Positions 3,601 through 38,137 of a DNA stretch of 39,124 nucleotides are shown in pieces. Within the stretch, counting starts at the first letter, position 1; the number at the start of each line of letters is the position of its first letter. This DNA is from Eubacteriales Family XIII. Incertae Sedis bacterium (GTDB lineage Bacteria; Bacillota; Clostridia; Peptostreptococcales; Anaerovoracaceae): positions 1 through 39,124 of the forward strand of contig JAISLZ010000037.1 of the NCBI GenBank assembly GCA_031277015.1, in the 5' to 3' direction. Both the position numbers and the translations under genes were made by a program. The notes beneath the pieces are model-generated. The model saw nothing but the letters and a program-made list of their open reading frames with translations, was not told the origin of the DNA and ran no database searches.

Positions 3601-3691
3601 ATTAGCACGTTGCCAGGCACCGACAAAGCAAATCCGCTGATTGCGGTATATTCAACAGCGTAGCAACACATATTGGCAGGAAGGGGCAATT

Positions 3692-6781: not shown

Positions 6782-6794
6782 TATCCAGCCCACG

Positions 6795-8646: not shown

Positions 8647-8661
8647 TATCGTCTCCTTTGC

Positions 8662-9816: not shown

Positions 9817-9871
9817 TGTCCCCACCTTATTGTTGCCATGCATTTATATCCAATGTACCTTAGCCCCATAG

Positions 9872-10858
9872 TCACGCGTCCGCCACAGTAAGCGCGCGGG
9901 CTTTCTCTATGATCTTGTCCTCGGACGGAATGATCGGGAACTCGAGCGCCGGACTGAAAGGCAGGGGGACATTCGGCGTGCCGATGCGCGCGATGGGCGC
10001 GTCGAGGTAGTAGAACACGTCCTCCATGACGTTCGCCGCAATCTCCGCACCCACGCCACAACGCTCATAGGCCTCGTCCACGATGAGTAGTCGCCCGGTC
10101 TTTTTGACGGATTCTATAATGGCGTCCCTGTCGAGCGGCACTATGCTCCGCAGATCTATTACCTCGCACGATATGCCATCCGCCGCGAGCTTGTCCGCGG
10201 CCTTCAGCGACTTCATCACCTGGGACGATGTCGCCACTATCGTGACGTCGTCCCCTGCACGCTTCACGTCGGCCTTGCCGATGGGGATGAGCTCCACATC
10301 GTCGTCTATATCAAATTTGTTGGTATATTCCATCTTGTGCTCGAAGAATATGACGGGATTGTCGTCTCTTATAGCTGATTTGAGCAGGCCCTTCGCCTCC
10401 TGTGCCGTCGAGGGAAGCACGACCTTCATGCCGGGAAAATGCGCCACCATCGCCTGCAGGCTCTGAGAATGTTGCGCGGCCGACGAACGTCCCGCCCCGA
10501 TAGGAGCACGGATGACCATGGGCACGGTGGCCTGTCCGCCAGACATATAGCGTATCTTAGACATCTGATTCACGACCTGGTCGGCCGCTATGAGCAGGAA
10601 ATCGGAAAACATGAGCTCGACGATGGGCCTGAGCCCAGTCAGCGCCATGCCGACCCCCATGCCGACGAAACCGGCCTCCGATATGGGCGTATCCTTGACA
10701 CGGAGGTCACCGTACTTTTCGTACAGGCCAACAGACGTCTTGAAATTGCCGCCGATGAAGGCTACGTCCTCGCCGAGCAGTAACACATTGTCGTCACGCG
10801 CCATCTCCTCGTCCAGCGCCTCCAGTATCGCATCCCTATACATTATTTCTCTCATCAT
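9872..10858 (-). CDS. acoB: TPP-dependent dehydrogenase E1 beta subunit (acetoin/2-oxoacid type)
   Basis: About 328 aa, the full length of E1-beta subunits. It carries the transketolase pyrimidine-binding half with LLGEDVAFIGG and SEAGFVGMGVGMAL, the latter including the conserved Glu that activates TPP. The C-terminal transketolase-C half follows (IDLRSIVPLD, VDEAYERCG). It pairs with the alpha subunit encoded 14 bp upstream to form the alpha2-beta2 E1 heterotetramer. ATGs at 10858 and 10855 both follow AGGAGA. The similarity is to acetoin dehydrogenase E1-beta, but branched-chain and pyruvate E1 enzymes share this fold, so the substrate stays open. Confidence 0.92.
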   Translation of the reverse strand: MMREIMYRDAILEALDEEMARDDNVLLLGEDVAFIGGNFKTSVGLYEKYGDLRVKDTPISEAGFVGMGVGMALTGLRPIVELMFSDFLLIAADQVVNQMSKIRYMSGGQATVPMVIRAPIGAGRSSAAQHSQSLQAMVAHFPGMKVVLPSTAQEAKGLLKSAIRDDNPVIFFEHKMEYTNKFDIDDDVELIPIGKADVKRAGDDVTIVATSSQVMKSLKAADKLAADGISCEVIDLRSIVPLDRDAIIESVKKTGRLLIVDEAYERCGVGAEIAANVMEDVFYYLDAPIARIGTPNVPLPFSPALEFPIIPSEDKIIEKARALTVADA

Positions 10859-10872
10859 CTGTCTCCTGTACC

Positions 10873-11847
10873 TCACCCTATCAAGACATCGTCAAAGGCT
10901 TCGGATGCGTCCGGGTACGGACTATCCACAGCGTATTTCACGGCAGCCTGTATCTCCCGCTCGACCTCGCCCTCAATGGCTGCTACCGCGGCTTCGGAGG
11001 CGCCGGATGCTATCAGCTTCGCGCGGAAGGCGCGGACAGGGCAACGCTCCATCCAATCTTTCTTCTCATCGGCGTCCCTGCGCGCGCGGTAGACCGCGGG
11101 ATCGCCGACGTGATGGCCCTGCCAGCGGTAGGTCTTGCACTCCACTATAGTCGGCCCTTTGCCTTTCCTGGCATGATCCACGGCCTCGGCCGCCGCCGCA
11201 TAGACCGCCTCCACGTCCATTCCGTCCACCACGACGCCGGGTATGCCGTACGCCTTCGCCCTGTCTGCCAGGTCGCGCGTATTTGTGACATCGCGAATGT
11301 CCACCGATATACCGTAGAGGTTGTTTTCAATAATATAGATGCAGGGCAGTTTCCACGCCGCAGCCATATTGACGCTCTCATGAAAGGTCCCCTCGTTCGT
11401 CGCGCCATCACCGAAAAAGGATACGGCCACCTGCTCCGTCCCCCTGTATACGGCGGAATAAGCCGCGCCCGTTGCGATGGGTATCTCACCACCGACTATG
11501 CCGTTCGCACCGAGGATGCCCCTGTCCATCGCCATGATGTGCATGGAACCACCCTTACCCCGGCTGTAGCCGCCCTCCTTGCCGAGTATCTCGGCCATCA
11601 TCATGTCCGTCCTGGCCCCACGCGCCACGAGGTGGCCGTGCCCGCGGTGGGAACTGCCGATGTAGTCGTCGTCGTTCAGCGCGGCGCACACGCCGGTCGC
11701 AACGGCTTCCTCGCCCAGATACAGATGCGCCAGCCCCGGCATGAGGCCCTTCTTGTAGAACTCAAAGACCTCCTCCTCAAATCTGCGCATCTTGTACATG
11801 GTTTCGTATATGCCGCCAAATGATTTTTTCGCTAATTTTTTCACCAT
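10873..11847 (-). CDS. acoA: TPP-dependent dehydrogenase E1 alpha subunit (acetoin/2-oxoacid type)
   Basis: A 324-aa E1-alpha. The TPP-binding motif starts at GDGATNEG (about residue 145) and ends at the paired Asn in IIENNLYGIS. SHRGHGH and the phosphorylation-loop-like segment YSRGKGGSMH are conserved in this family. The ATG has GGAGGAT upstream. It heads the E1-alpha, E1-beta, E2, E3 cluster. Acetoin dehydrogenase E1 splits acetoin into acetaldehyde and an acetyl group; other family members decarboxylate pyruvate or branched-chain 2-oxoacids. The AcoR-like activator nearby favours an acetoin-type role but does not prove it. Confidence 0.92.
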   Translation of the reverse strand: MVKKLAKKSFGGIYETMYKMRRFEEEVFEFYKKGLMPGLAHLYLGEEAVATGVCAALNDDDYIGSSHRGHGHLVARGARTDMMMAEILGKEGGYSRGKGGSMHIMAMDRGILGANGIVGGEIPIATGAAYSAVYRGTEQVAVSFFGDGATNEGTFHESVNMAAAWKLPCIYIIENNLYGISVDIRDVTNTRDLADRAKAYGIPGVVVDGMDVEAVYAAAAEAVDHARKGKGPTIVECKTYRWQGHHVGDPAVYRARRDADEKKDWMERCPVRAFRAKLIASGASEAAVAAIEGEVEREIQAAVKYAVDSPYPDASEAFDDVLIG

Positions 11848-11962: not shown

Positions 11963-11991
11963 AACAGGGGCCGCGAGTCACGACCCCTGTT
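11963..11991. other. Hairpin between the second small gene and E1 alpha
   Basis: AACAGGGG and CCCCTGTT form a perfect 8-bp stem around 13 nt. It lies in the 178-bp gap between the 37-aa gene and E1-alpha. It lacks a T-run on either strand, so full termination is doubtful. It may be an attenuator or processing site that lowers dehydrogenase expression relative to the symporter. No promoter could be assigned in the gap. Confidence 0.45.
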
Positions 11992-12025
11992 GACAACTTT
12001 CGGTAACCGTGTGCGCCTCAACGCC

Positions 12026-12139
12026 TCAGTCGCGCTTCTTCCTGCCGTACGCTCCGGCCATGATGCCATACACGATACCTACCGCGATGACTATCGTCAT
12101 CCAAATGAGCTCCTTGTATTCAATCCCGCTGATCCACAT
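12026..12139 (-). CDS. Tiny membrane protein, second of a pair after the symporter (37 aa)
   Basis: A 37-aa reading frame starting MWISGIEYKELIW, with one membrane segment (about residues 11-29, ending VYGIMAGAYG) and a basic tail (GRKKRD). GGAAGGTAGG precedes the ATG and the start lies 15 bp after the stop of the other small gene. The size, single helix, basic end and position behind a sodium:solute symporter match small accessory subunits known for several SSS and NSS transporters. It could stabilise or regulate the symporter. Function is inferred from context and composition, not from a recognised family. Confidence 0.7.
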   Translation of the reverse strand: MWISGIEYKELIWMTIVIAVGIVYGIMAGAYGRKKRD

Positions 12140-14346: not shown

Positions 14347-15885
14347 ATGGTAATGGCTACAGGACTCAAGATGGAGCTCAAAGTAAAATCGGTCGGGCAG
14401 ATATACAGGAACAACTATGCGCCCGACAAAACGGCTCTCGTATTCAAGGGCAAAGAGTGGACATATGGGGAATTTGACAATGCGGTCATCGCCCACGCTA
14501 ATTTTTTCAGAGCTCTCGGATTGAAACCCGGCGAGCGCGTCATACTCGACGCTCCGAACAGTCCGGATTTCATCTTCACCTATTTCGGTGTCGTCAGAAA
14601 CGCCGCCATCATCGTCCCGGTCAACCCTATGTTCACGCGGAGGGAGCTCGGCTACACGTCGAAGGATGCGGGCGCGAAGTATCTGGTCATAAGTGACTCC
14701 GTGCTCACGCAACATGAATACACGAAGCGCCAGCTATCAGACGAACTCGGTATCAAGGTCATCGTGATAGACGATGATTTCAGGCAAAGGGTACAGGACA
14801 GCCCGCGCGAGGACTTCGACCTCGTAGACCACGCGCAGACGATCTCGACCTACCTCTACACATCGGGAACTACGGGCGTTCCAAAGGCTGCCATGCTCTC
14901 ACACCACAACCTTACCATCAATGCCATGCAGACGAATACCGCGTTTGACACTGACGGGTCGGATCGTTTCATACTCGTTCTACCCCTCTTTCACGTACTC
15001 GCGTTCACATGTGTCACCCTCATGCCACTCGCCACGGGGGCAACGGTATACCTCATCGAGAGTTTCCGTCCTAAGGAGTTCATCGAGGAACTCACCGCAA
15101 AGAATATCACTGTATTCATAGGCGTCCCCGCAATGTATGTCGTTCTGGTCAATGCGGGAAAACAGCACGTACAGTTCCCGGATCTTAGGCGCGTCATCTG
15201 TGGAGGCGCACCTCTGCCCATAGATACCATCAATGGGATGAAGGATGGCCTTGGACTCGAAGTCGTCGAAGGCTATGGGCTCACGGAAGCCTCCCCGGCG
15301 TGCCTGTTCAACCCCATCCACGGAGTGCACAAACCCGGTTCCGTAGGTGTCCCCTTCCCTTTAAACGAGTGCAAGGTCGTAAACGAAGCGGGAGATGAAC
15401 AGCCCGCCGGCAAGCCGGGGGAACTTCTCGTCAAGGGGCCCAACATCATGCAGGGTTACTATAACCGACCGGAAGAAAACGCAGCTACGATCGTGGATGG
15501 ATGGTTACATACCGGCGATATCGCTCAGACAGACGAGGACGGTTACTTCTATATCGTAGACAGGATCAAAGACCTCATCATCGTGTCCGGACTGAACGTC
15601 TACCCGAGGGAGGTGGAGGAAGCCCTATTCGAACACCCGCGCGTAGCCGAGGCCGCAGTCATAGGCGAGCCGGACAAACTGCGCGGCGAAGTCGTCGTGG
15701 CCTATGTCGCGCTGAAAGAAGGCGAAGACATTCACCACAAGGAGCTCTTGCGTTTCCTGAAAACGCGCCTATCGCAGTACAAGCTCCCACGCCGAATCAA
15801 TATAGTGGACTCCCTGCCCCGCAACAGCTCAGGCAAAGTCCTAAGGCGCGTACTGAAAGAAAGCTCCGTGAAAGATGATAAGTAA
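14347..15885 (+). CDS. Acyl-CoA synthetase / AMP-dependent acid:CoA ligase
   Basis: A 512-aa adenylate-forming enzyme. The phosphate-binding loop YTSGTTGVPKAAML is near residue 172, the motif EGYGLTEASP near 313, the hinge GDIAQTDEDGYFYIVDR follows, and the C-terminal catalytic Lys is in NSSGKVLRR. It activates a carboxylic acid as acyl-AMP and transfers it to CoA (or a carrier protein). Chain-length preference cannot be read. AAGGAGG precedes the ATG; a second ATG two codons on is also possible. It is transcribed rightward alone and converges on the ACP-FkbH cluster, so it could feed acyl groups into that pathway or serve the catabolic island to its left. Confidence 0.92.
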   Translation: MVMATGLKMELKVKSVGQIYRNNYAPDKTALVFKGKEWTYGEFDNAVIAHANFFRALGLKPGERVILDAPNSPDFIFTYFGVVRNAAIIVPVNPMFTRRELGYTSKDAGAKYLVISDSVLTQHEYTKRQLSDELGIKVIVIDDDFRQRVQDSPREDFDLVDHAQTISTYLYTSGTTGVPKAAMLSHHNLTINAMQTNTAFDTDGSDRFILVLPLFHVLAFTCVTLMPLATGATVYLIESFRPKEFIEELTAKNITVFIGVPAMYVVLVNAGKQHVQFPDLRRVICGGAPLPIDTINGMKDGLGLEVVEGYGLTEASPACLFNPIHGVHKPGSVGVPFPLNECKVVNEAGDEQPAGKPGELLVKGPNIMQGYYNRPEENAATIVDGWLHTGDIAQTDEDGYFYIVDRIKDLIIVSGLNVYPREVEEALFEHPRVAEAAVIGEPDKLRGEVVVAYVALKEGEDIHHKELLRFLKTRLSQYKLPRRINIVDSLPRNSSGKVLRRVLKESSVKDDK

Positions 15886-15920: not shown

Positions 15921-15950
15921 GCGTGAAACCCGCAAAAGCGGGTCTCACGC
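15921..15950. terminator. Bidirectional hairpin between acyl-CoA synthetase and ACP
   Basis: GCGTGA-ACCCGC and GCGGGT-TCACGC form a 12-bp stem with one internal mismatch and an AAAA loop. It contains the stop codon of the leftward ACP gene and follows the rightward synthetase. There is no long T-run, so termination is inferred from stem strength and its position between convergent genes. Confidence 0.6.
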
Positions 15951-16205
15951 AGTTGGCGCTTCACGCAGCGTCTCGATCTTGTCGGCGATAGCGCCCACAG
16001 ACGTCAACTCAGGGATATCGTCACTGTCAAACTGTACGTCGAACGCCTCCTCGATCTCGAATATCAATTGAATATGTGATACGGAATCCCATTCCTTCAG
16101 GTCGTCGCCGCTGGTCTCGTCCGTTACAGCAAGCGAGTCGTCACCAAAAAAGGACCTTATCACATCGCCCAATTCCTCAATGATATCTTTTCTTTTCATT
16201 TTCAT
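15945..16205 (-). CDS. Acyl carrier protein (first, downstream copy)
   Basis: About 86 aa, acidic and helical. The phosphopantetheine attachment serine is Ser41 in EWDSVSH. The flanking pattern (LIFEIEEAFDVQFDSDDI) is typical of ACPs in modular or dedicated pathways rather than the housekeeping DSLD type. Three in-frame ATGs (16211, 16205, 16199) follow AAAGGAA; 16205 has the best spacing. It is the last gene of the FkbH/KAS III cluster. FkbH-like proteins load a glyceryl or similar acyl group onto a dedicated ACP, and this one is two genes downstream of FkbH. A hairpin terminates the cluster inside its stop region. Confidence 0.88.
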   Translation of the reverse strand: MKMKRKDIIEELGDVIRSFFGDDSLAVTDETSGDDLKEWDSVSHIQLIFEIEEAFDVQFDSDDIPELTSVGAIADKIETLREAPTA

Positions 16206-16249
16206 TTTCATTTCCTTTCACGAACAAGACGGCGGATATCATCCCCGGT

Positions 16250-16696
16250 CTATGCTCCGCATTGCACGAGTTCTATCATTCCGGCATTCCGTCCCATCAA
16301 AAATAGGACACCCCGACCTCCGAGGGCGGGAGCGGATACAGGCCCACGGCGGCCCACCGCGTTTTCTATATTTGGTAATAGATGGAGGGGGGGGGTATTT
16401 AATGAAATGTATCCGACGCGATTCAATGCAGCTTCAGCCGAAGGGATATCTTCCACCTCATAGCATATATGATAGGGACCCGCACCGTTTTTTTTCAGCA
16501 ATGCGCGGACGACGGAATTTTCTCCGCGCGAAGCGACGAGCTCGATCAGATGGTCCCCGTTTCTCATAAATACGATGTCCACATCACGTCCCTCATCATA
16601 ACAGGGCGCACCCACCTCCGCATAGCCCAAAGCCTTATGCTCTGTGACCGCCTTTGGAATATTTTTTACAAGAAAGCCGATATGATGTATCTTCAT
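16250..16696 (-). CDS. VOC-superfamily protein (glyoxalase / methylmalonyl-CoA epimerase-like)
   Basis: A 148-aa protein of two paired beta-alpha-beta-beta-beta modules: HHIGFLVKNI at the start, HLIELVA at the end of module one, YHICYEVEDI at the start of module two and GMIELV at the end. These supply the usual His/Glu metal ligands of VOC enzymes. Family members are epimerases, isomerases, lyases and dioxygenases; the best resemblance is to methylmalonyl-CoA epimerases, but here a carrier-protein-bound substrate is plausible. GGAGA precedes the ATG. It lies 14 bp after FkbH. The gene carries a run of nine C (coding strand) and a run of eight A, unusual in such a short GC-rich gene. Confidence 0.82.
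   Translation of the reverse strand: MKIHHIGFLVKNIPKAVTEHKALGYAEVGAPCYDEGRDVDIVFMRNGDHLIELVASRGENSVVRALLKKNGAGPYHICYEVEDIPSAEAALNRVGYISLNTPPLHLLPNIENAVGRRGPVSAPALGGRGVLFLMGRNAGMIELVQCGA
16387..16395. repeat. Homopolymer tract of nine G/C inside the VOC gene
   Basis: Nine consecutive G on the plus strand, read as C9 in the VOC coding strand. A T8/A8 tract lies in the same gene at 16488-16495. Runs of this length can slip by one base and switch the frame. Slippage here is only a possibility. Confidence 0.75.
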
Positions 16697-16710
16697 TGAA
16701 GTTTGTCTCC

Positions 16711-18501
16711 TTACTTTCCGCCGATCATGGGCATCTCGGCTTCGATATAGGTCTTCTGCGGTACAAAGCTGTCCAGCGCAAGCCTCCAGCGCGTGGCAGG
16801 ACCGTCGACCGTATCGCCTACGTCATCCGGTTCGTCAGATATATCCTGCTCTACAAACCCCATCTCCCTAAGTAACCCTTTGGCGGGGCCGTTTTTCGCG
16901 GTGGGAATGTACTCCGCGATTATCTCCCTGTAATTGTCACGCTTGGCCTCACTCGCTATCACTCCTATCATGAACGTCTCCACACCGCGCTTCGCGACAC
17001 GACAACTCATGAGAAATGTGTCAAGAAACAACGTTTCCGGCGAATCTTTCCGTAGAATTGCGACGCCTATGATGCCGTAGTCACCAAACGCGTCCCTGAG
17101 CGAGGCGCACATAGTGACGTACTCCCCGGACTCTGTCATATCCGCAAGCTCCCTCTCCGTGTAACGTCGCGTCCGCAGATTGAACTGATTTGTCCGCTGT
17201 GTTAGCTGTGCCGCACGTGGAATCGAGAAAGCATCAAACGGCCCTATCGTACAGCGCATATCCAGTTCCTTCAGATATGTATCCAGATTCGCGGCTCGCT
17301 CTCTATGCCTCTCCCTCTCGGCTTCGTGGCGATACATCTCCGTCCTGGCCACATCTTCCTCCAAAATGACGACCGCCTCAAACAATCCAAGAGATTGCAG
17401 ATATGACAGCACCCCGGTCGCGTCCCTAGGCAATTCGGGAACGACGACATCCGGAAGCGCGTTGCGCACCAACTCACGCTCAAACGGATTGTCATCGATG
17501 AAGACCATGCTGTCAAACCCGATGTTGAGTATCCTCCGTATCTCCCGAATATTCGACGCCTTATCCCGCCAATTTGCGATGAACACGGCGATATCATCCC
17601 GCCTAAGAACCATGTCGGGGTGTTGCAAAAATGGCATCATCGCGACTCTTTCGTCATTCTTGCTACATACGCATACGGCTATGCCGCGCCTCGACAGCTC
17701 GCGTATCCATGCTTGCAGATCGGCGTAGGCCCTTCCCACGCCCGCTCCACCGATGGCGATATGTTCCCATCCCACCTCTCCAACGACGCCACCCCAAAGA
17801 GTGTCGTCGAGATCGGTGATGAGGCATTTGCGAACTTTGCCCGTAAGAGCGTCCGACACCGCGAATACGCGATCCGCCACATCCGCGAGAAAATCCATGG
17901 TCCACGGGCAGGAAGCGAGATAATACGAACGCGGATCGTAAGCGTGAATCGCACCCACCGCACTTTGGAGCATGTCAACATCCACAAGAAATACGCCGTC
18001 ACGATGCTTCACGGACTCGGCGATCAGCATATTAGTCTCGCGAATGCCGGAGAGCAGGGATTCAGGATACGTGCCTGCCAAATTGCCGTATAGACCGTCA
18101 TCCATAGTACAGAAATTGCAGATAATGACGGGCGCGCCCGAACGTCCGGTGAGTGCGTCCAGAATATCGCATAGACGCGCAGCCTCGCGTTCAGGGAACG
18201 TAGCGCGACGCATTTTTTCCTCATTATAGAACCGGGCCCTGTAGTTCTGCGCTGACGGGAACACGACGATCCTGTCCGGTTCAGATAGGTATAGGCCGGA
18301 ATCCGGGTCAAGCGCCTCCTCAAGCATGCGGTCGAAAGCTCCTTCATAGACACGCGCGTCGATAAGGCGCTCAAATGAAACAGCGCGTAGCGCCTGCGCG
18401 ATATACTGGCTAGCCTGATCCGCGAGTACAGCAATATTCATCCGGTGAAACGCAGAATAGTCCTTGTTCAAATTTACTCTAAGTCTTTTGAAATCAGCCA
18501 T
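16711..18501 (-). CDS. FkbH-like HAD-IIIC phosphatase / acyl-ACP loading enzyme
   Basis: A 596-aa protein. Residues 1-215 form an SGNH-like N-terminal region. The HAD domain starts at Asp230 and Asp232 in TDLDDTLWGG, followed by CSKND and FIDDNPFER. The C-terminal GNAT-like domain has the family segments QRTNQFNLRTRRYT, FGDYGIIG, MSCRVAKRGVE and EYIPTAKNGPAK. Characterised FkbH-like enzymes dephosphorylate 1,3-bisphosphoglycerate and load glyceryl onto an ACP for tetronate or methoxymalonyl units. The start at 18501 has GGAGTAGG upstream and lies 2 bases after the KAS III stop, so the two are translationally coupled. Partners in the cluster are two ACPs, KAS III, SDR and VOC. Confidence 0.92.
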   Translation of the reverse strand: MADFKRLRVNLNKDYSAFHRMNIAVLADQASQYIAQALRAVSFERLIDARVYEGAFDRMLEEALDPDSGLYLSEPDRIVVFPSAQNYRARFYNEEKMRRATFPEREAARLCDILDALTGRSGAPVIICNFCTMDDGLYGNLAGTYPESLLSGIRETNMLIAESVKHRDGVFLVDVDMLQSAVGAIHAYDPRSYYLASCPWTMDFLADVADRVFAVSDALTGKVRKCLITDLDDTLWGGVVGEVGWEHIAIGGAGVGRAYADLQAWIRELSRRGIAVCVCSKNDERVAMMPFLQHPDMVLRRDDIAVFIANWRDKASNIREIRRILNIGFDSMVFIDDNPFERELVRNALPDVVVPELPRDATGVLSYLQSLGLFEAVVILEEDVARTEMYRHEAERERHRERAANLDTYLKELDMRCTIGPFDAFSIPRAAQLTQRTNQFNLRTRRYTERELADMTESGEYVTMCASLRDAFGDYGIIGVAILRKDSPETLFLDTFLMSCRVAKRGVETFMIGVIASEAKRDNYREIIAEYIPTAKNGPAKGLLREMGFVEQDISDEPDDVGDTVDGPATRWRLALDSFVPQKTYIEAEMPMIGGK

Positions 18502-18503
18502 TC

Positions 18504-19565
18504 CTACTCCACCGCTACGATTCCGGCATACGCCAGCCCTCCGAGCGAAGTCGCGACACCGCCCCATGACAGACCTACTCCAAAGCCGGACATGATCACA
18601 TCTTTGGGCATTGAAAGCTCCTTGGACGCAAGATCGCAGATGAGCAGCGGTATAGTGGACCCGTTTGTATTGCCGTATCTGCCGATGTTGACCGGGAACT
18701 TTTCGAGAGGGAGCCTGCTGCGTTTCGCGATAAATTTCAGCATATATGCGTTTGCCTGGTGCAGCAGGAAATACTCAAAGTCCGCTTTGTCCATCCCGTG
18801 CAACTCCGCCAATTCATCGATGAGCGCGGGCACTCGCTTGACCGCAAACGTGAAGACAGCCATCCCGTCCATATAGAAGTCCTCCGATGAACGCCCGTTA
18901 CCGTCATCGTCGTATGACACTATACCCGTATCCGAATCCATCGGCATACGCGCGCCACCAGCGGGCACGATCAAGGCATCCGATCCCGAGCCGTCCGTAC
19001 TCATTATGACAGAAGATAACACCCCCTCCGTCGAACGCTCCAGAGCTGTCGCTGTCCCCGCATCGCTTATGATGAATGTCAATCCTTTATCCTCCGGTGA
19101 CACGTATCTCCTGAGGGTATCGCCGATGAGCAGCAGGACCTTGCTGCAAGCTCCCGTATCTATGAGATTGGCCGCAAGGAAGTACGCGGAGACGAACGCC
19201 GAGCAACCGAAATTCATATCGAATGCAAAACAGCCCGTAGACAGCCCCAGCCTGTCCTGAAGGAGACAGGAAGTAGCCGGCGCGATATAGTCCGGCGTCT
19301 GGCTGACGAAGATCAGACCGTCTATCTCCTCCCTCTGCCAGCCCAGGCCGTCGATCAGCCTTTCGGCCGCCACGTAGCACAGATCCGAAGCGGTCTGCCC
19401 TTCCTCGGCGAAGTACAGATTTCCGACCCCGATGGGGAGCGTTATCTTTCTTATTTCCGGCTCGTCGAAGAATCCTTCCCCTACTTCATAAACGGTCTTG
19501 ACGGTCCGTGGAAGCGCCCCACATACGCCGCTGATCTTCACATTCTTTGTTTGCAATTTTGCCAT
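18504..19565 (-). CDS. 3-oxoacyl-ACP synthase III-like condensing enzyme (KAS III / FabH-like)
   Basis: A 353-aa thiolase-fold enzyme with the full KAS III triad: Cys121 in NFGCSAF, His269 in LLHQAN and Asn299 in YGNTNGS. The protein differs enough from housekeeping FabH around the cysteine (NFGCSAF rather than AACAGF) to suggest a specialised substrate. It catalyses Claisen-type condensation or acyl transfer with an acyl-ACP. Directly beside FkbH, this pairing is seen in tetronate pathways, where a FabH-like protein joins glyceryl-ACP to an acyl chain. AAGGGAC precedes the ATG. It sits 64 bp after the SDR gene and 2 bp before FkbH in one leftward operon. Confidence 0.93.
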   Translation of the reverse strand: MAKLQTKNVKISGVCGALPRTVKTVYEVGEGFFDEPEIRKITLPIGVGNLYFAEEGQTASDLCYVAAERLIDGLGWQREEIDGLIFVSQTPDYIAPATSCLLQDRLGLSTGCFAFDMNFGCSAFVSAYFLAANLIDTGACSKVLLLIGDTLRRYVSPEDKGLTFIISDAGTATALERSTEGVLSSVIMSTDGSGSDALIVPAGGARMPMDSDTGIVSYDDDGNGRSSEDFYMDGMAVFTFAVKRVPALIDELAELHGMDKADFEYFLLHQANAYMLKFIAKRSRLPLEKFPVNIGRYGNTNGSTIPLLICDLASKELSMPKDVIMSGFGVGLSWGGVATSLGGLAYAGIVAVE

Positions 19566-19629
19566 CTATTACTGTCCCTTGATGATTTCCATGGTTATTC
19601 CAACTCGCCTTACGATGGCGCTCTCATTA

Positions 19630-20379
19630 TCACGCTCGCGTCAGATGCCCCCCGTCCAGGATAAATGTCTGTCCCGTGAGCCATCTCGCCTTGTCGCTTA
19701 CCAGGTATGTGATGAAGGACGCGACGTCCTCAGGACGTCCGATGCCGAACGGATATCCGTCAAGCAGCGCGCTACGCTGCCCATCGGTAAGCTGTTCGAT
19801 AAATCCCGACACCATTCGGGTCTCGACGACACCGGGCGCTACGCAGTTGATACGAATGCCGCGTTCAGACAGCTCTGCCGCCGCCGCGCAGGCAAATCCT
19901 TCAAGAGCGGATTTCGAGGCCGCATAGATGGATTTCCCCGGTGCGCCCTCGTGCGCCGCCAGAGATGATATCAATATGAAGGACGCGGCTACCGTCGCCA
20001 TCCCCTTTCTTGAGAAAGCGCCGACCAGGCACATTGCGGCGTAGGTGTTGAGCGCAAACACATCTTCTATCTTTGAGATTTTTGTCATATGGACGGGCAG
20101 AGTCCTCTCCATACCGGCACAGTGGACGAGCCCCCTGATGGGACCAATTCGGTCCCGGGTAGCCTTCGCAAAATCCCCTATGCTACTACGGTCAGACAGA
20201 TCCCAAGGCATGACCAACGCGTTTTGCTCATCTCCGTACAACATCTCCAGCTCAGACTCCCTGCGCGCGGCAGCTACAACCGAATACCCCGACGCAAGCA
20301 ACATCTTCGATGTCTCGGCCCCTATCCCGCTCGATGCCCCTGTTACGACTATCCACCTATTGCTATCAGTTTCGCTCAT
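19630..20379 (-). CDS. Short-chain dehydrogenase/reductase (FabG-like)
   Basis: A 249-aa classical SDR: cofactor motif TGASSGIG at residue 13, the structural NAG-type segment near HCAGME, catalytic Ser in ILISSLAA, Tyr-x-x-x-Lys as YAASK, and the C-terminal SDKARWLTGQTFILDGG. It most likely reduces a 3-oxoacyl-ACP produced by the neighbouring KAS III, using NADPH. No Shine-Dalgarno is visible near the ATG, and a 17-bp palindrome lies 8 bases upstream, so initiation may be unusual or repressed by structure. It is followed 64 bp later by KAS III. Confidence 0.92.
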   Translation of the reverse strand: MSETDSNRWIVVTGASSGIGAETSKMLLASGYSVVAAARRESELEMLYGDEQNALVMPWDLSDRSSIGDFAKATRDRIGPIRGLVHCAGMERTLPVHMTKISKIEDVFALNTYAAMCLVGAFSRKGMATVAASFILISSLAAHEGAPGKSIYAASKSALEGFACAAAAELSERGIRINCVAPGVVETRMVSGFIEQLTDGQRSALLDGYPFGIGRPEDVASFITYLVSDKARWLTGQTFILDGGHLTRA

Positions 20380-20386
20380 GCAGTAT

Positions 20387-20403
20387 CAAAAATATTATTT
20401 TTG
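20387..20403. other. AT palindrome just upstream of the SDR start
   Basis: CAAAAATA-T-TATTTTTG is a perfect 17-bp palindrome, with its near end 8 bases before the SDR ATG and no ribosome binding site between. It could be a weak attenuator, a protein-binding site or an RNA structure controlling SDR translation. Confidence 0.45.
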
Positions 20404-20445
20404 CCTCTAAAAGATGCAGCATATGCCTCATCTCCATTATGTATA

Positions 20446-20673
20446 TTATGCGTCGCATCCGATCAGCGACAATAGATCCCTTGGCGTCTTAGCCGCGATG
20501 AAATCGTCCACGCTGACAGTCACTCCGAACTCATCCTCGATCGTTACAAGTGTCGCGTAACCTTTCAAAGAATCCCAGTCAAAAGCATCGGTCTTGAACT
20601 CAGTGTCGAGGGTCACCGCGTCCTCATCCACCTCAAGTATATCAGCCAAACTAATCAGCAATTTTTCTTCCAT
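20446..20673 (-). CDS. Acyl carrier protein (second, upstream copy)
   Basis: A 75-aa acidic helical protein. The phosphopantetheine serine is Ser35 in DWDSLKG. Helix pattern and length are those of a stand-alone ACP. The ATG at 20673 is chosen for AAGGAAAC just upstream; an in-frame extension to 20751 has no such signal and would give a basic, atypical N-terminus. It lies between the glycerophosphotransferase-like gene and the SDR. Two different ACPs in one cluster suggest one carries the loading unit made by FkbH and the other the acyl chain handled by KAS III and SDR. Confidence 0.88.
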   Translation of the reverse strand: MEEKLLISLADILEVDEDAVTLDTEFKTDAFDWDSLKGYATLVTIEDEFGVTVSVDDFIAAKTPRDLLSLIGCDA

Positions 20674-20750
20674 GATGTTTCCTTTTACGCCTGCATTCCC
20701 TATGGGTATCACCTTCAAGAAAAGTATATCACATCGAACGGCCGCTTTCA

Positions 20751-21911
20751 CTATGGACGAACGGTCTCATCGCCGAGCGCCCGCAGGATCACGCTTTTAA
20801 GTCTTTCCGTGCATCCACCGTCATAGGTCTCAACGTATTTCCTGGCAAAGGCGCGCTCGTACTCCATATCGTAATCTTTTTCACGGATGAGGCGCGCGAT
20901 CGCCCTAGCGCTACGAGCCGCGTATCTGCCATACTCCAGTTCAGGATCGATGTTGAGACCGGGTGAACGGCGATAATCTTCGATGTCGTATATATAATAG
21001 TAGAGAGGCTTGCCGACCAGCGCCGCCGCAAACGCGAGGCTTGAATAGTCTGTGACGACGATATCAGCGGCATACAGAAGCTCCTCCGCGTAAATCCCCG
21101 AACCGTCCACCTCATCCACCGGATGTTTCTTTTCGATCACCATATACCCGTCGGAGCCGAGCGCTTTGCGTAGCGCGCCCGGACCCTCACCGCGCTCGTA
21201 AGTTTTATCCATATCATGTCCCGGCGTATCCTTCCGGTATGTTGGCACGTAAAGCACCACCTTTAAAGGCCGACCGGCTTTCTCATTCTCATCGAACTCC
21301 GGATATGCGGCAGCTATATCTCCCTCTTGATTGAATGTCCCTACGTATAATGCATCCACATATGGCGTGCCTGTGATGAGCGCCTTGTCCTCGCTCATTC
21401 CGAAAGCCTCAGCGAAGAAACGCGCGGCAGACTCCGACGGCGCAATGAAAAAGTCATAGCCCGCGTGCATGCACAGTAACTTTGCCCTTCGCTTATCCCT
21501 ATCGCTCATAGCCTGGAGAGTCTGAAGGCCGAATTTTTTCACGGCGCCTATCGCGTGCCACATCTGTATGACCGTCAGTTCTTTCCTATGCTTCAGGATG
21601 CTGATGGGAATAGAATAGCCGTCGGTTACAGCGACGCGGGCCCTGGACAACGCTCTCATCTGGCGCAGTATCATGCGCATGTTCGCGATCGCATTCGCCA
21701 TAAATCGCGAACCATCCTTCTCCTGCCTCTGCAAATACATTTCCGTCCTTATGCCATCCGCACGGAGGGTCTCAGCGAGAGCCCTATAATCCTCAGACGG
21801 CTCATCACCTTGCCTACTGACAAATATCACATTGCCGGAAGCCGGACCCCGTTTCATAAAGAAATATATTATCCTAAAAAAGAGTTTGGCTGTACCTATC
21901 AATATACCCAT
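20751..21911 (-). CDS. CDP-glycerol glycerophosphotransferase-like protein (TagB/TagF family)
   Basis: A 386-aa protein with an N-terminal hydrophobic, basic membrane-association segment (about residues 5-22). Family motifs are QMWHAIGAVKKFG, corresponding to the WHG-x-x-x-K-x-G motif, then the YVPTYR segment and the C-terminal ADIVVTDYSSLAF. TagB/TagF proteins transfer glycerol phosphate from CDP-glycerol to wall teichoic acid linkage units or polymers at the inner membrane face. The motif Gly after WH is Ala here. The ATG has no clear Shine-Dalgarno and lies 17 bp after the M28 stop. Its presence ties the acyl-carrier cluster to a glycerol-phosphate or surface-polymer product. Confidence 0.88.
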   Translation of the reverse strand: MGILIGTAKLFFRIIYFFMKRGPASGNVIFVSRQGDEPSEDYRALAETLRADGIRTEMYLQRQEKDGSRFMANAIANMRMILRQMRALSRARVAVTDGYSIPISILKHRKELTVIQMWHAIGAVKKFGLQTLQAMSDRDKRRAKLLCMHAGYDFFIAPSESAARFFAEAFGMSEDKALITGTPYVDALYVGTFNQEGDIAAAYPEFDENEKAGRPLKVVLYVPTYRKDTPGHDMDKTYERGEGPGALRKALGSDGYMVIEKKHPVDEVDGSGIYAEELLYAADIVVTDYSSLAFAAALVGKPLYYYIYDIEDYRRSPGLNIDPELEYGRYAARSARAIARLIREKDYDMEYERAFARKYVETYDGGCTERLKSVILRALGDETVRP

Positions 21912-21928
21912 ATCGTAAGATGACGGAG

Positions 21929-24277
21929 CTATAGGCCCATATCCTCCACGCGCGCGTCATCGGCATAGGTGTCAAGAAGTTCATTCATACTGTCGGTCAA
22001 TCTCGCCAGAGCGTCCTCCTGCCCATTGTATACGGCTATGAGCGTATCTTCCTGGCTCTTTATAAGCTCATCTATCATGGCAAGCTCGGCCGCGAAATCC
22101 AACGCCTGTTCACCTGACGCCGAACTACCGGCGCCGGACGATGACGAAGGATCTACTTCCACCGCCGAAGGCGACGAGAGCGCCGCACCCGTCACGGCCA
22201 GGGAACCGTAGAGCGCATCCGCCATCTCACTCCCCATCCTGCTAAGAATTGCACGGACGATATCATCCGCACGGCAGGCGCGCGATACGAGCCTGCCCTC
22301 AGCCCATGTACCCTTCACCGATTCGTCTAGCCCTTTCGAAAACTTATCGCAGGTGTCGGCATCGAATGCGGTAGCCGCGTACACGGACTCTATCCCGGAA
22401 AGGTAGTCATCAATCGCCGATTTTGCATCTCCACCCGCCAGGGCTTCACGTGCTCCGTACAACATCGTTATGTTGTGCTGAATACCTTCGTTGGCGAATC
22501 CCGGTTCCAAATTTCTATCCAGACGCAGTAACTCATCCTGCATTTCACGGTACACGGCGTATATACCGTCGTTGATCCCGGCAGCCAGTTTTCTCGTCTC
22601 CTCGAATTTTTCCATCGCTTCTTCCCGGCTGGTCTCAGCGCTTCCTTCATCGGCTCCGTCGATCTTCGCTACGGCGAGTCTGTAATCTGTGTTGAAATCC
22701 GAGGTGAAGCTGTCAAGCGCCTTTGCTGATCTGATGGATCTATCTAGATTTGCCATAAGATGGGCGTCAAAGACCGGCCTGTCATAATCCTCAAGCGTAT
22801 CCTTGAGATGTTCCAATCTATTCGCGAACTTCAGTGGGCGCAACGGCATATCGTCCAGCATGAAGGTCGAATAGCCGATATACCTGCCTATACAGAGTGC
22901 CCCGGCGTCGCTGTAGCCGCCGACCGCAAGATCATCCATACTGGAGTGGTACATCGACGCGAAATATTGTTCGTCTCCCTCACCCCCCTCTGTCGCAAAG
23001 GTCGGTACGCCGCACGCATTGTAGATAAAATCCTCCCGGTACGTGCTCGGGGACGATATGGCGGGAGAGACGGTGATCTCGCTACGATCACCGAACGAAA
23101 CAATACTGGATCTCGCGAAGTCCTTGAGCTCCACGGGCGCGTTGATGCTAAAGCTTTTCATGGAGCTCAAAGGATATCCACTGTCTATATTGAATAGCGC
23201 GAAGGAACGTTCGGCCCATTCGGGCCTGATGTTGACGATCTGCTCATAAGCGCCCGTAGCCCAGTCGGCCTCCGTTCCTGATCTCCCCCATTCTTCCGCA
23301 CCGTGCAGGATGAAACGCAATGTCTTTTCCGGCTTGACCTCACTTTCACGGAACGCTTTGGCTATACCCAGGATCAGGCCCACTCCGGACGCATCATCAT
23401 AAAAAGAATGGTAATAGCCGTCGTAGTGGGCGATGAACATGATGGCTTCGTCCGTCATACCCGGTATCTCTCCCCATATATTGCGTGTACCTTCGTTCAT
23501 GGTGACCTTGCTGTCTGCATTCAGTACCACATCGATCTGCTTGACGCCGCCCTCGTCATACCCGTCCGCGTCAATGGCCCGGCGGATGGCATCACTGTCT
23601 AGCGAACTGATCGCAAGCGCAGGCGCACCCGCGTCACCACATATATCCTGGCTGACTACGCGAGCGCCTATATCCTCCTCCATGATGCTACACGCGACGA
23701 CGGCGCGCGCGCCCTTCAGATGAGCTTGGTACGCGGGATAGTTGATCCACCACTCGTTCTCCTGATCTATGTCTATGAGTACGAGTTTCCCTCTCACGTC
23801 TATGCCCTTATAGTCGGCCGCCGTACCCTTGCCGAGATAGACGATGGGCAACCTCTCGTCATGGGCGACTATGTCTGTCTGGTACCCGCCGAGGGCCGCC
23901 GTTGTGACATGGCCGCGTTCGTCCTTGAACGAGATGTTCGCGCCTCCAAATATCCATCCGTCCGCCGCGGCCCTGTCGACCGTCACGTTCTCGAGACCTA
24001 TGTCCTTCATTGTCTGAGCGAGCAGGCCTGCGGCTTCCTCCTCAGCGGGGCTGCCCGAGCTGCGGAATCCGAGCGCGGGGTCGTCCCCAAGCGCGGCGAG
24101 CTGCGAAGCCACCGTCTTGCAGAACTCAGGATCTACCGCAGCCGCGTACTCCTCGTATCCGGAAGGTGAGGAACCGCGCACGGGAACCTTCTCCGCCGGT
24201 TGCCGGGCTACTATGATACCACATACAGCGATGGCGATGATGGCTATCGCCATGGCGGTTTTGAAAACGCTTCTCAT
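21929..24277 (-). CDS. Membrane-anchored or secreted M28-family metallopeptidase
   Basis: A 782-aa protein. Residues 7-25 are a hydrophobic signal or anchor. A PA-like insert lies at about 110-240 (KGIDVRGKLVLIDI). The M28 zinc site is complete: His in FIAHYDG, bridging Asp in YDDASGVG, Glu-Glu in LHGAEEWG, Asp in LFNIDSG and the last His in YHSSMDD. After the peptidase, about 300 residues are helical with Ser/Ala-rich stretches and no recognised domain. It would cleave N-terminal amino acids or act as a peptidase outside the membrane. The ATG overlaps the NUDIX stop by 4 bases. Its relation to the acyl-carrier genes may be only shared transcription. Confidence 0.9.
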   Translation of the reverse strand: MRSVFKTAMAIAIIAIAVCGIIVARQPAEKVPVRGSSPSGYEEYAAAVDPEFCKTVASQLAALGDDPALGFRSSGSPAEEEAAGLLAQTMKDIGLENVTVDRAAADGWIFGGANISFKDERGHVTTAALGGYQTDIVAHDERLPIVYLGKGTAADYKGIDVRGKLVLIDIDQENEWWINYPAYQAHLKGARAVVACSIMEEDIGARVVSQDICGDAGAPALAISSLDSDAIRRAIDADGYDEGGVKQIDVVLNADSKVTMNEGTRNIWGEIPGMTDEAIMFIAHYDGYYHSFYDDASGVGLILGIAKAFRESEVKPEKTLRFILHGAEEWGRSGTEADWATGAYEQIVNIRPEWAERSFALFNIDSGYPLSSMKSFSINAPVELKDFARSSIVSFGDRSEITVSPAISSPSTYREDFIYNACGVPTFATEGGEGDEQYFASMYHSSMDDLAVGGYSDAGALCIGRYIGYSTFMLDDMPLRPLKFANRLEHLKDTLEDYDRPVFDAHLMANLDRSIRSAKALDSFTSDFNTDYRLAVAKIDGADEGSAETSREEAMEKFEETRKLAAGINDGIYAVYREMQDELLRLDRNLEPGFANEGIQHNITMLYGAREALAGGDAKSAIDDYLSGIESVYAATAFDADTCDKFSKGLDESVKGTWAEGRLVSRACRADDIVRAILSRMGSEMADALYGSLAVTGAALSSPSAVEVDPSSSSGAGSSASGEQALDFAAELAMIDELIKSQEDTLIAVYNGQEDALARLTDSMNELLDTYADDARVEDMGL

Positions 24278-24819
24278 AAATGCGCAGAACCTCGTACCAA
24301 CTCCCGCGCCAGCAGGGCAGACACTATCGTCTTTTGGTCTATCAACTCGCCGTTCATCGTCATAGAGTACAGTTCCTCCGGGGTATATTCCTCCACGATG
24401 ATAGCCTCATTATCATCAAAATCGGTCTCTCCGGGCACCAAGCCTTCGGCAAGGTAAAACCTGAGTATTTCGGTAGAGTAGCCTATGGAGGAATAGCCCT
24501 CGAGCAGATACCTGACGCTTCCCGCGGTGTAGCCCGTCTCCTCGCGGAACTCGCGCGCGGCCGCTTCCGTCGGATCCTCGCCCTTCTCGAGCTTTCCCGC
24601 GGGTATTTCCAGGACGGCCCTTTCCGCCGCCTTGCGATATTGTCTGACCATAGGCACCCTTCCCTCATCGGTCAACCCGATGATGACTATGCCGCCGCCG
24701 TGTTCGACGATTTCACGGTACGATTCCCCGTTCCTGACCGTAACTTTGTCGCGGCGCAGATTGAGTATCTTACCTTCATATATGCGTTCCGATCCTATCG
24801 TCTTCTCCTCAAATATCAT
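24274..24819 (-). CDS. NUDIX hydrolase, ADP-ribose pyrophosphatase type
   Basis: A 181-aa protein. The NUDIX box is complete: GKLEKGEDPTEAA followed by REFREETGY. The N-terminal strand pattern (ERIYEGKILNLRRDKV) is typical of the ADP-ribose pyrophosphatase subgroup. It hydrolyses nucleoside diphosphate sugars such as ADP-ribose. It starts 5 bases after proC and overlaps the M28 start by 4, so the three genes are co-translated. The substrate is assigned from subgroup resemblance only. Confidence 0.88.
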   Translation of the reverse strand: MIFEEKTIGSERIYEGKILNLRRDKVTVRNGESYREIVEHGGGIVIIGLTDEGRVPMVRQYRKAAERAVLEIPAGKLEKGEDPTEAAAREFREETGYTAGSVRYLLEGYSSIGYSTEILRFYLAEGLVPGETDFDDNEAIIVEEYTPEELYSMTMNGELIDQKTIVSALLARELVRGSAHL

Positions 24820-24824
24820 ATCGG

Positions 24825-25652
24825 TTATTTGCCCATCCTCTTTGATTTTTCGACACAGGCGTAGACGGCGCGTTTGACCGTATCCATGAAATCCCCCTTT
24901 TCGAGCGCCTGCACAGCTTCTATAGTCGTTCCGCCAGGGCTACATACGTTTACCCTCATCCGCTCTACACTCACATCCCCATTCTCCATTACCATCTTCG
25001 CCGCTCCCAAAGTCGACTGCGCCGCCAACAGTCGGGCGTCCCTTTCGCTAAGGCCGTGCCTGACGCCGCTCTCGATGAGCGCCTGCATATACATATATGC
25101 GTAGGCCGGACTAGATCCGCTGATACCGGTGACCGCGTCGAGAGCGTCTTCGCTGACCTCTATAACGCGGCCTACGGAGCCGAATACTTCTGCCACCGAC
25201 CCGAACTCAGCGTCCGTGATCGATTCCCCGCGCGCGAGGGCCGACATGCCCTCCCCCACCATGACTGGGGTATTTGGCATAACGCGGATTACCTTCGCTC
25301 CGCCGAGCGCGTCGGAGAGCCAGCCTATGCCGACACCTGCAGCTATCGAGGCGAATACCTTCTCCGTGGCGCCGGCGCCATCAGATATCATGCCCGCCAA
25401 ACGCGGGACGGCCTCGTCAAACATCTGCGGCTTGATCGCAAGAATCACGACGTCCGACTTAGCGATCAGATCGGCCTCGTCTGCCGCCGCACTTATCACG
25501 GGCAACTCCGCAAGCGCTTTTGCCTTGGAGGCATCAATGTCGTAGACGAATATCCTGACCGTTTCGCCGCGCTCCGTTGCCACGATACTACTCGCATAGC
25601 CGCGCGCTATCGCGCCACCCATATTCCCCGCTCCGAGTATGCCTATGTTCAT
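24825..25652 (-). CDS. proC: Pyrroline-5-carboxylate reductase
   Basis: A 275-aa enzyme for the last step of proline synthesis, reducing 1-pyrroline-5-carboxylate with NAD(P)H. The Rossmann motif is GAGNMGGA, and the C-terminal signature region is present (GGTTIEAVQALEKG after VCSPG). VMPNTPVMVGEG is also conserved. GGGAGG precedes the ATG, which overlaps the proB stop by 4 bases. The third proline gene, proA, lies 9 kb away on the other strand. Confidence 0.96.
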   Translation of the reverse strand: MNIGILGAGNMGGAIARGYASSIVATERGETVRIFVYDIDASKAKALAELPVISAAADEADLIAKSDVVILAIKPQMFDEAVPRLAGMISDGAGATEKVFASIAAGVGIGWLSDALGGAKVIRVMPNTPVMVGEGMSALARGESITDAEFGSVAEVFGSVGRVIEVSEDALDAVTGISGSSPAYAYMYMQALIESGVRHGLSERDARLLAAQSTLGAAKMVMENGDVSVERMRVNVCSPGGTTIEAVQALEKGDFMDTVKRAVYACVEKSKRMGK

Positions 25653-26458
25653 GAATACCTCCCGCCGGGGACAAATATCGTACCGGACTGTTCACCGCCC
25701 GCTATACGCGTCAACACACCGCGCGACTTGCCGCAGACGAGGAGCAACGCGGCCCCGTGCTCCGCAACGGCTTCAGCAGCGTCTATCTTTGACCCCATAC
25801 CTCCTGAACCGAAACTGCTCTTGCCGCCTGTATCTATGACACGCCTGAGCGCGCCTATGTCCGTAACCTCGCCTATTAGCTTCGCGCCCTCGTGTTCCTT
25901 GGGCGACTTGTCGTACACTCCCTCTATATCGCTCATGAGTATGAGCAGGTCCGCATTCCAAAGATTTGAGGTGAGGGCCGCAAGCCTGTCATTATCACCG
26001 CTGTCAAACTCGTCGATACTGACACTGTCGTTCTCGTTGATGATCGGCACGACTCCTTCATCGAGCAATGTAAAAAGAGTGTTGCGTATATGTAGCGTTG
26101 TATTCCGGTCACGAAAATTGGCGCGTGTGAGAAGCAGTTGGGCAACTATCGCGCCGTGCTTTGCGAAATGCTTTTTGTACGCCATCATAAGCTCCACCTG
26201 ACCTACCGCGCACATCGCCTGTTTGTAGTTCATATCACCGTGACGGCTCCAGGCGCCGACCGCATTAACGCCCGACACTTCCGCGCCCGAGCTCACCATC
26301 ACGACCTGCTTGCCCTCCTCGCGCAGAGCTACAACCTGTGCCGCGATGTCCTCCACTACATCCGTATCCATACTGCCATCCGCTCCAGCAAGCACGTTGC
26401 TCCCGATCTTCAGGACTATCTTCCTGCTGCCGGTAAGTATCTCAGTAGCCTTGTCCAT
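25649..26458 (-). CDS. proB: Glutamate 5-kinase, short form without PUA domain
   Basis: A 269-aa amino-acid kinase. Motifs: VLKIGSNVL at the N-terminus, VSSGAEVSG, INENDSVS and the late SFGSGGMGSKIDAA. It phosphorylates glutamate to start proline synthesis. The protein ends after the kinase domain, about 100 residues shorter than E. coli ProB, which carries a C-terminal PUA domain; the short form occurs in other bacteria. I used the ATG at 26458, behind GAGGAAAGG, rather than a GTG two codons earlier. It overlaps proC by 4 bases. Confidence 0.95.
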   Translation of the reverse strand: MDKATEILTGSRKIVLKIGSNVLAGADGSMDTDVVEDIAAQVVALREEGKQVVMVSSGAEVSGVNAVGAWSRHGDMNYKQAMCAVGQVELMMAYKKHFAKHGAIVAQLLLTRANFRDRNTTLHIRNTLFTLLDEGVVPIINENDSVSIDEFDSGDNDRLAALTSNLWNADLLILMSDIEGVYDKSPKEHEGAKLIGEVTDIGALRRVIDTGGKSSFGSGGMGSKIDAAEAVAEHGAALLLVCGKSRGVLTRIAGGEQSGTIFVPGGRYS

Positions 26459-26530
26459 ACACACCTTTCCTCGATTACGCGCGCGAATCCCTCATGGCGA
26501 AGCCTGTTCGAACGCTCCGCCTCGCGGTCT

Positions 26531-27970
26531 TCACACCTTCAAAACGACCTTCTCACCGTCAGGAAGCCCATCCGTTATTGGGAGGATATTTTCTCTAATA
26601 AAATCCTCCGTCTGCCCGGCACTCCTTCCTATATACAGCGATGGATCGAGCAACCTCTCGATTTCCTCCATGCTCATGCCGAAAGACGGATCACCCGCAA
26701 TGCGTTCCAGGAGATCGTTCGACTCGCCATGTTCCTTGACCCTTTCCGCCGCCGCCATGGAATGTACCCTGATGCGTTCGTGAAGCTCCTGCCGATCTCC
26801 ACCCTTCTTCACGGCGTTCATAAGGATATTCTCTGTGACCATGAACGGCAGCTCGGCCATGATATGCGAGTGTATCACGCGTTCATGCACGACGAACCCT
26901 CCCGTAACATTGCAGAGTATGTCCACTATAGCGTCGGCAGCCATAAACGCCTCGGGTATGACTATACGCCGGTTCGCGCTGTCGTCGAGAGTCCGTTCAA
27001 ACCACTGCGTCGCCTCCGTGACCGGGGGTACGGCAGCTACGCCCATGATATACCTCGCGAGTGAGCTGGCCCGCTCGCTTCGCATGGGATTCCTCTTATA
27101 CGCCATGGCGGATGAACCGATCTGATCTTTCTCAAAAGGTTCCTCTATCTCCTTCATGCTCTGGAGTAGCCTGACGTCATTAGTCATCTTCGCCGCGCTC
27201 TGCGCTATGCCCGAGAGGGCGGATAGCACCTTGCTATCGATCTTGCGAGTATAGGTCTGGCCGGATAGCGCTACCGTACAGGTGAACCCGAGCTTCTCAG
27301 CCACCAGGACCTCGAGAACTTTCACCTTATCCTCGTCACCGCCCGCAAGCTCGAGAAAACTCGCCTGCGTACCCGTAGTGCCCTTGACCCCGAGCAGAGG
27401 GAGCGACTCCACGAGCGACGTTACATCCTTATAATCGTAGTAAAAATCCTGAAGCCAAAGAGCGGCGCGCTTGCCTACCGTCACGAGTTGCGCGGGCTGC
27501 AGGTGTGTGAACCCCAGGGTCGGCAACGCCTTGTACCTGAGCGCAAAGTCCGCGAGGTTCTTCATGAGGCGCGCGAGCTTGCCCGCTATCCATGCCAGCG
27601 CTTCTTTCATCTGTATGATATCCGCGTTGTCGCCCACATAAGCGCTCGTCGCGCCAAGGTGGATGATAGGTGCGGCTTTCTTCGCCTGAAGTCCGTAAGC
27701 GTGAACGTGAGCCATGACGTCGTGTCTGACCTTGCGCTCCCGCGCCTCAGCTTCCGCATAGTTGATGTCGTCGGCGTATCTTCTCAAATCATCTATCTGT
27801 TCATCGGTGATGCCTCCGAGTCCGAGCGCGCGCTCAGCTTCTGCGAGGGCTATCCATAGTCTGCGCCACGTCCTGAACTTCGTATCCGGCGAGAAGATGC
27901 GCAACATTTCGTCACTCGCGTACCTCTCACACAGCGGATTGGCATATATACTGTAGTCTTTGTAAGGCAT
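26531..27970 (-). CDS. purB: Adenylosuccinate lyase
   Basis: A 479-aa member of the fumarase/aspartase superfamily with the signature SSAMAYKRNPMRSE and the His-containing HLGATSAYVGD segment. It cleaves SAICAR and adenylosuccinate, releasing fumarate, in purine synthesis. The length matches the long form of the enzyme. GGAGG lies before the ATG at 27970. It is the first gene of the leftward series that continues into proB, proC and the acyl-carrier cluster, although a 72-bp gap separates it from proB, so it may have its own end. Confidence 0.95.
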   Translation of the reverse strand: MPYKDYSIYANPLCERYASDEMLRIFSPDTKFRTWRRLWIALAEAERALGLGGITDEQIDDLRRYADDINYAEAEARERKVRHDVMAHVHAYGLQAKKAAPIIHLGATSAYVGDNADIIQMKEALAWIAGKLARLMKNLADFALRYKALPTLGFTHLQPAQLVTVGKRAALWLQDFYYDYKDVTSLVESLPLLGVKGTTGTQASFLELAGGDEDKVKVLEVLVAEKLGFTCTVALSGQTYTRKIDSKVLSALSGIAQSAAKMTNDVRLLQSMKEIEEPFEKDQIGSSAMAYKRNPMRSERASSLARYIMGVAAVPPVTEATQWFERTLDDSANRRIVIPEAFMAADAIVDILCNVTGGFVVHERVIHSHIMAELPFMVTENILMNAVKKGGDRQELHERIRVHSMAAAERVKEHGESNDLLERIAGDPSFGMSMEEIERLLDPSLYIGRSAGQTEDFIRENILPITDGLPDGEKVVLKV

Positions 27971-28107
27971 ATTTCGTTCCTCCAAGTATATTATTGTACA
28001 CCTTTTGAGCCGATTTGCCCATATGTCGTGGGCACTCGGGCACGACGCGCTTCCTTCGCATAATTATCAGAATAATTTATTAAATTCGAAATAGTTTTAA
28101 TTTTCTG

Positions 28108-38134: not shown

Positions 38135-38137
38135 CAC

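Follow-up and report, generated by a model that had tools for sequence, protein, structure and literature searches.

What is made by the tightly packed acyl-carrier, condensing and FkbH-like genes at 15945-21911, and does the TagB/TagF-like gene next to them take part? The window, i.e., the whole stretch of 39,124 nucleotides analyzed here, is contig C55 of a 1.98-Mb genome that is 87% complete. The initial annotation proposed a glyceryl- or hydroxyacyl-derived unit, either released as a small tetronate-like product or attached to a surface polymer.

Gene content of the locus

As initially annotated, the locus consists of seven contiguous leftward genes; all seven open reading frames are intact and their families were matched by Pfam/NCBIfam (Table 1). 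The intergenic gaps calculated from the coordinates are, in order from the ACP1 gene to the TagF-like gene, 38, 14, 2, 64, 66, and 77 bases, which bears out the distance of two bases given earlier for KAS III and FkbH. A promoter and terminator scan for the module yielded chance-level numbers, and no direct repeats marking insertion borders were found around it.

Table 1. Features of the window, with coordinates, strand, and family matches or predicted roles.
Feature	Position	Strand	Family match, motif or reading
AcoR-like sigma-54 activator	3641..5782	+	Ordinary
Acetoin-dehydrogenase-like operon	6874..11847	-	Ordinary
AcoC	8662..9843		Belongs to the acetoin dehydrogenase operon
AMP ligase	14347..15885	+	Converges on ACP1
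ACP1	15945..16211	-	Pfam PP-binding; motif EWDSVSHIQL; predicted carrier of FkbH-made glyceryl
VOC/glyoxalase-fold protein	16250..16696	-	Glyoxalase_4; methylmalonyl-CoA-epimerase/GloI-like
FkbH-like HAD-IIIC protein (596 aa)	16711..18501	-	FkbH_N and TIGR01686; predicted glyceryl transferase/phosphatase
KAS III	18504..19565	-	ACP_syn_III and its C-terminal domain; predicted condensing enzyme
SDR, FabG-like reductase	19630..20379	-	adh_short_C2
ACP2	20446..20673	-	PP-binding; motif DWDSLKG; predicted carrier of malonyl and the extended acyl chain
TagB/TagF-like glycerophosphotransferase	20751..21911	-	Glyphos_transf (163 bits); judged outside the module, neighbor by position
M28 peptidase, Nudix, ProC, ProB, PurB	21929..27985	-	Conserved block going with the TagF-like gene; outside the module
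Large surface protein	35663..38137	-	Pfam thioester domain (TED); C-terminal tail resembling a membrane anchor

The FkbH-like protein belongs to the FkbH family according to its TIGR01686 domain (277 bits against an NCBIfam cut-off of 147). Its solved structural relative is BF1531 (3slr), and the DxD motif (D230xD232) and other invariant residues are kept in an alignment with relatives. The Cys-His-Asn triad of the KAS III is intact, as had been reported: Cys121, His269, and Asn299 are invariant across seven aligned sequences. The predicted model of this protein has a pLDDT of 78 and a pTM of 0.82, with two poorly modelled loops. Both ACPs keep the serine of the WDS motif when aligned with relatives, and they fall into two separable groups, with ACP1 aligning with the FkbH-side ACPs of six relatives and ACP2 being distinct. 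The SDR shares 51-55% identity with module SDRs from the same family. An ACP, a ketosynthase, and a ketoacyl reductase are found together in one unit, as in FAS-II-like R-group modules. The VOC protein matches clostridial glyoxalase-like 2qh0/3hdp and methylmalonyl-CoA epimerases. The alignment revealed a 17-residue insert near residues 106-122 (about 16325-16395) that is missing in relatives and adjoins a run of nine C, the sole G/C run of eight or more bases in the window. The tract and the insert represent a possible site of slippage or damage, and the VOC gene could be damaged.

Two further candidates were rejected. The AMP ligase gene has relatives in the same genus (80 and 77% identical) on other contigs, between genes that we take from reading their sequences to be ABC-F-like and 4-alpha-glucanotransferase-like. 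Because these relatives lie elsewhere, the ligase was not taken as a part of the module and was discarded as its acyl activator. The methoxymalonyl-ACP pathway (FkbG-K type) shares FkbH and an ACP with the module but needs two dehydrogenases and an O-methyltransferase, all of which are absent from it.

Synteny of the TagF-like gene

The TagF-like gene is adjacent to the acyl genes on the same strand, separated by the 77-bp gap, and the genome contains six PF04464 matches. These observations favor an acyl decoration of a glycerol-phosphate polymer via the adjacent enzyme. The protein itself does not reach the equivalog cut-offs of TarB (127 bits vs. 500) or TarF (69 bits vs. 550), and only membership of PF04464 holds. 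The gene order in the genus argues against such a partnership. In genome G089, the TagF orthologue (59-61% identity) sits in a block TagF-M28-Nudix-ProC-ProB-PurB with no acyl gene beside it and with a gene for a metallo-beta-lactamase-fold protein on its other side, and the acyl modules of this genome are located on two other contigs. The same block is present in G141 of the same genus, whose 73%-complete assembly gave no match to KAS III or FkbH. In the window it spans 20751-27985, and L175 and L176 have the same order.

Of 80 FkbH loci drawn from many phyla, not one has a detectable relative of the window TagF within 9 kb, and no TagF-like gene was seen beside the acyl module at the readable loci of relatives. 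In addition, decoration after polymerization would need a membrane acyltransferase such as MBOAT, which is absent beside the module. We consider this polymer decoration most improbable. The initial annotation had counted TagF as part of the system and held that non-adjacency in relatives would break the surface-polymer link; non-adjacency is what we found, and TagF is rejected as a partner by synteny within the genus. Since the TagF block is separate in relatives, the simplest account of the window is a module beside a TagF gene with its own older neighbors.

Conservation of the acyl module and its neighborhood

The order ACP2-SDR-KAS III-FkbH-(VOC)-ACP1 is conserved in seven further genomes, six from Anaerovoracaceae and one from another Bacillota class. 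FkbH has such a KAS III nearby, together with ACPs and an SDR, in L046 (G089) and L028 (G235) of the same genus, in L101 (G129), L180 (G169), L181 (G168), and L182 (G164) of the same family, and in L233 (G1046) of the other class; a second locus of G089 (L103) has the same combination with the SDR missing. The acyl set thus represents more than chance, because it recurs in other genomes in nearly the same order. In the window, L180, L182, L233, and also L021, FkbH and ACP1 are separated by a VOC gene. In L046, a second, divergent KAS III (5969-7051, 36% identity) is encoded upstream of ACP2, a possible sign of two extension rounds there.

In a tree of 53 KAS III sequences, the window protein falls in a supported set of eight (100/99), and FkbH adjoins KAS III in seven of the eight sequences of this closest clade. 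The presence of an FkbH neighbor is clustered on the tree, to which close relatives contribute. More distant KAS III sequences (L233, L206) also neighbor FkbH, which suggests more than one joining event. Locus L233 carries FkbH-VOC-ACP-KAS III-ACP-NeuD-SDR in one run (6591-12048), apparently an independent assembly of the same gene set.

The neighborhoods in relatives point to surface glycans. A NeuD/PglD-type sugar N-acyltransferase is encoded in or beside the module at all seven loci with a readable flank (L046, L028, L103, L101, L180, L182, and L233). Five of these loci (L046, L101, L180, L182, and L233) additionally encode PglC-type sugar-phosphate transferases and aminotransferases of the DegT family, which are of the LegC/PglE type where tested. 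L046 also carries a MurJ-type flippase and glycosyltransferases, and L101 and L182 carry FnlA, WbcJ-like, and WecB genes (UDP-L-FucNAc type). In NCBIfam, the LegC-type aminotransferases score 397-446 bits to TIGR04181 and the NeuD_NnaD proteins 157-170 bits, and the PglC-like transferase was also matched, with some scores of these glycan neighbor genes lying just under the curated cut-offs. The hydroxyacyl unit for a surface glycan, one of the options raised initially, is thus supported by the gene neighborhoods of relatives.

Both halves of the module also occur apart. In other Bacillota (e.g., L185, L232, L234, L235, L238), KAS III-SDR-ACP2 units that have no FkbH adjoin NeuD, PglC or DegT genes, which makes FkbH-ACP1 appear to be an added supply of primer. 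Conversely, 77 of the 80 FkbH loci have no KAS III. Next to such FkbH-ACP pairs, the commonest genes are those for MBOAT acyltransferases (19 of 92 neighboring genes tested), SDRs, and MaoC dehydratases. Together, these arrangements indicate that the module combines a primer block, made up of FkbH and ACP1 and often VOC, with an extension block that comprises KAS III, SDR, ACP2, and sometimes FabD. At least 38 of the 80 FkbH loci have a glycan gene nearby, a lower bound because the neighbor tally used a small set of reference proteins. We also observed that, in Bacteroidota and Clostridia (L022-L070), FkbH-ACP pairs frequently have an MBOAT membrane acyltransferase close by, which suggests a Dlt-like O-acylation system using glyceryl-ACP.

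The prevalence of FkbH loci without KAS III favors a simpler glyceroylation, in which FkbH-ACP1 would hand an unextended (or epimerised) glyceryl group to the sugar, with KAS III, SDR, and ACP2 making a separate acyl group or KAS III acting only as an acyl transferase between carriers. L021, which encodes NeuD-FkbH-VOC-ACP1 without KAS III or SDR, fits this reading, and di-O-methylglyceric acid is a known minor decoration of the flagellin sugars of C. jejuni (PMC3958885). We nevertheless judge it unlikely for the window, where KAS III is intact in its catalytic residues and almost abuts FkbH, as it adjoins FkbH throughout most of its closest clade. Moreover, between their SDR and KAS III genes, L180 and L181 encode a FabD-like malonyltransferase (248 bits against a cut-off of 261), pointing to a malonyl extender. 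KAS III and SDR with their own ACP, plus FabD in these two relatives, fit one malonyl extension followed by keto reduction.

The other option raised initially was a small tetronate, for which KAS III would join glyceryl-ACP1 to a 3-ketoacyl thioester before release. The glycerate-utilisation operon of tetronate pathways (abyA1-A5, mad7/8/16/17/18, RK-682 rkD) has an FkbH-like protein, a discrete ACP, and a FabH-like KAS III in common with the module; these are three of the five genes that tetronate clusters devote to glycerate utilisation (PMC7489565, PMC3625739). The remaining parts differ: between 14347 and 24277 there is no acyl chain source (PKS/FAS) and no Agg4/Agg5-like gene, and the module has a second ACP and an SDR, which would eliminate the 3-keto group required for a tetronate. 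The FabD-like gene found in relatives fits poorly as well, and the relatives lie in glycan clusters. A tetronate-like product is very unlikely on these grounds, while the pairing of FkbH with an ACP and KAS III without a modular PKS, also stated initially, is supported.

Proposed pathway and comparison with known systems

We propose that ACP2-SDR-KAS III-FkbH-VOC-ACP1 is a type-II-fatty-acid-like module that probably makes a short polyhydroxyacyl group with which a nucleotide-linked 4-amino-4,6-dideoxy sugar destined for a surface glycan is N-acylated. All steps are predicted from protein families and gene order. FkbH would load glyceryl from 1,3-bisphosphoglycerate onto ACP1, as FkbH-type enzymes are reported to do with discrete ACPs in tetronate pathways (e.g., Tmn16) (PMC3625739). 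The VOC protein might act on the alpha carbon of the thioester on ACP1, by epimerising it or in another way; this step is a guess and the least certain one. KAS III would then be primed with the ACP1-bound unit and condense it with malonyl-ACP2, a reaction for which we know of no demonstrated case; the KAS III of tetronate pathways couples glyceryl-ACP to a beta-ketoacyl chain instead. Reduction of the 3-keto group by the SDR would most simply give 3,4,5-trihydroxypentanoyl-ACP2. A NeuD/PglD-type enzyme, encoded next to the module in relatives, would transfer the group to the 4-amino position of a sugar that a PglF-like dehydratase and a LegC/PglE-type aminotransferase would produce, and a PglC-like enzyme and glycosyltransferases would build the acylated sugar into the glycan. 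The exact acyl group, 3,4,5-trihydroxypentanoyl, is a tentative assignment. Slightly more tentative still is the full picture of a glyceryl-primed mini fatty-acid pathway that yields this group (or a VOC-epimerised isomer) as a new N-acyl substituent on a bacillosamine-type sugar in Gram-positive clostridia. Among the papers listed in our literature search, trihydroxypentanoyl did not occur on a glycan, and the library searched contained nothing on FkbH with FabH and O-antigen or on FkbH with glyceric acid.

Unlike in relatives, the module in the window is not next to glycan genes. The genes for a UDP-4-amino-dideoxy sugar were found outside the window, namely a membrane PglF-like dehydratase (632 aa) on contig C89 and a LegC-type aminotransferase, 69% identical to its L046 counterpart, encoded at one edge of contig C63. 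Family searches found no NeuD/PglD in the window or its 87%-complete genome and no match to PglC (PF02397) in that genome. The NeuD family TIGR03570 gave weak matches on contig C69 only, which are probably GlmU, as the stretch reads like MurC-GlmU-Prs-Pth-Mfd. Either the NeuD and PglC genes lie in the missing 13% (e.g., past the end of C63) or N-acylation in this species relies on a different acyltransferase. The unfound N-acyltransferase and PglC are the main weakness of the proposed pathway.

The initial statement that no described system has exactly this gene set is overstated, as the R-group pathway of Flavobacterium psychrophilum follows the same logic without FkbH (PMC6519341). There, wfpD (ACP), wfpC and wfpE (ketosynthases), wfpF (reductase), and wfpG (PglD homologue) were assigned by homology to the formation of 3,5-dihydroxyhexanoyl on Qui2NAc4N, the glycan structure being determined by NMR (PMC6519341). 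Compared by description, this O-polysaccharide R1-group pathway (wfpC-wfpG with pglE/pglF; PMC6519341) is the closest described case. Both systems have a type-II-FAS-like ACP, ketosynthase, and ketoacyl reductase, and the PglD-like acyltransferase of F. psychrophilum is proposed to act on UDP-Qui2NAc4NH2. L101 and L182 share their L-FucNAc-type genes (FnlA, WbcJ-like, WecB) with it. The two differ in the acyl product, in the FkbH, second ACP, and VOC, none of which is described for F. psychrophilum, and in the acyltransferase, which is not beside the module in the window.

A further likeness, again by description, is the C. jejuni locus for acylated nonulosonate sugars, in which fabH2 and ACP genes presumably neighbor the fkbH-domain gene cj1302. 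This gene belongs to the flagellin glycosylation locus (PMC7099621). Both the sugar and the Gram-negative flagellin target differ from those proposed here.

The pathway would thus be a sugar N-acylation of a known kind, with the predicted glyceryl primer as its unusual feature. If the proposal is true, 1,3-bisphosphoglycerate from glycolysis enters a chain-extending pathway that yields a tag for glycans and no antibiotic, and a testable role emerges for FkbH genes outside PKS clusters. This gene order would then help in predicting, from genome sequence, which N-acyl groups surface glycans carry, and it cautions against labelling such sets as tetronate clusters.
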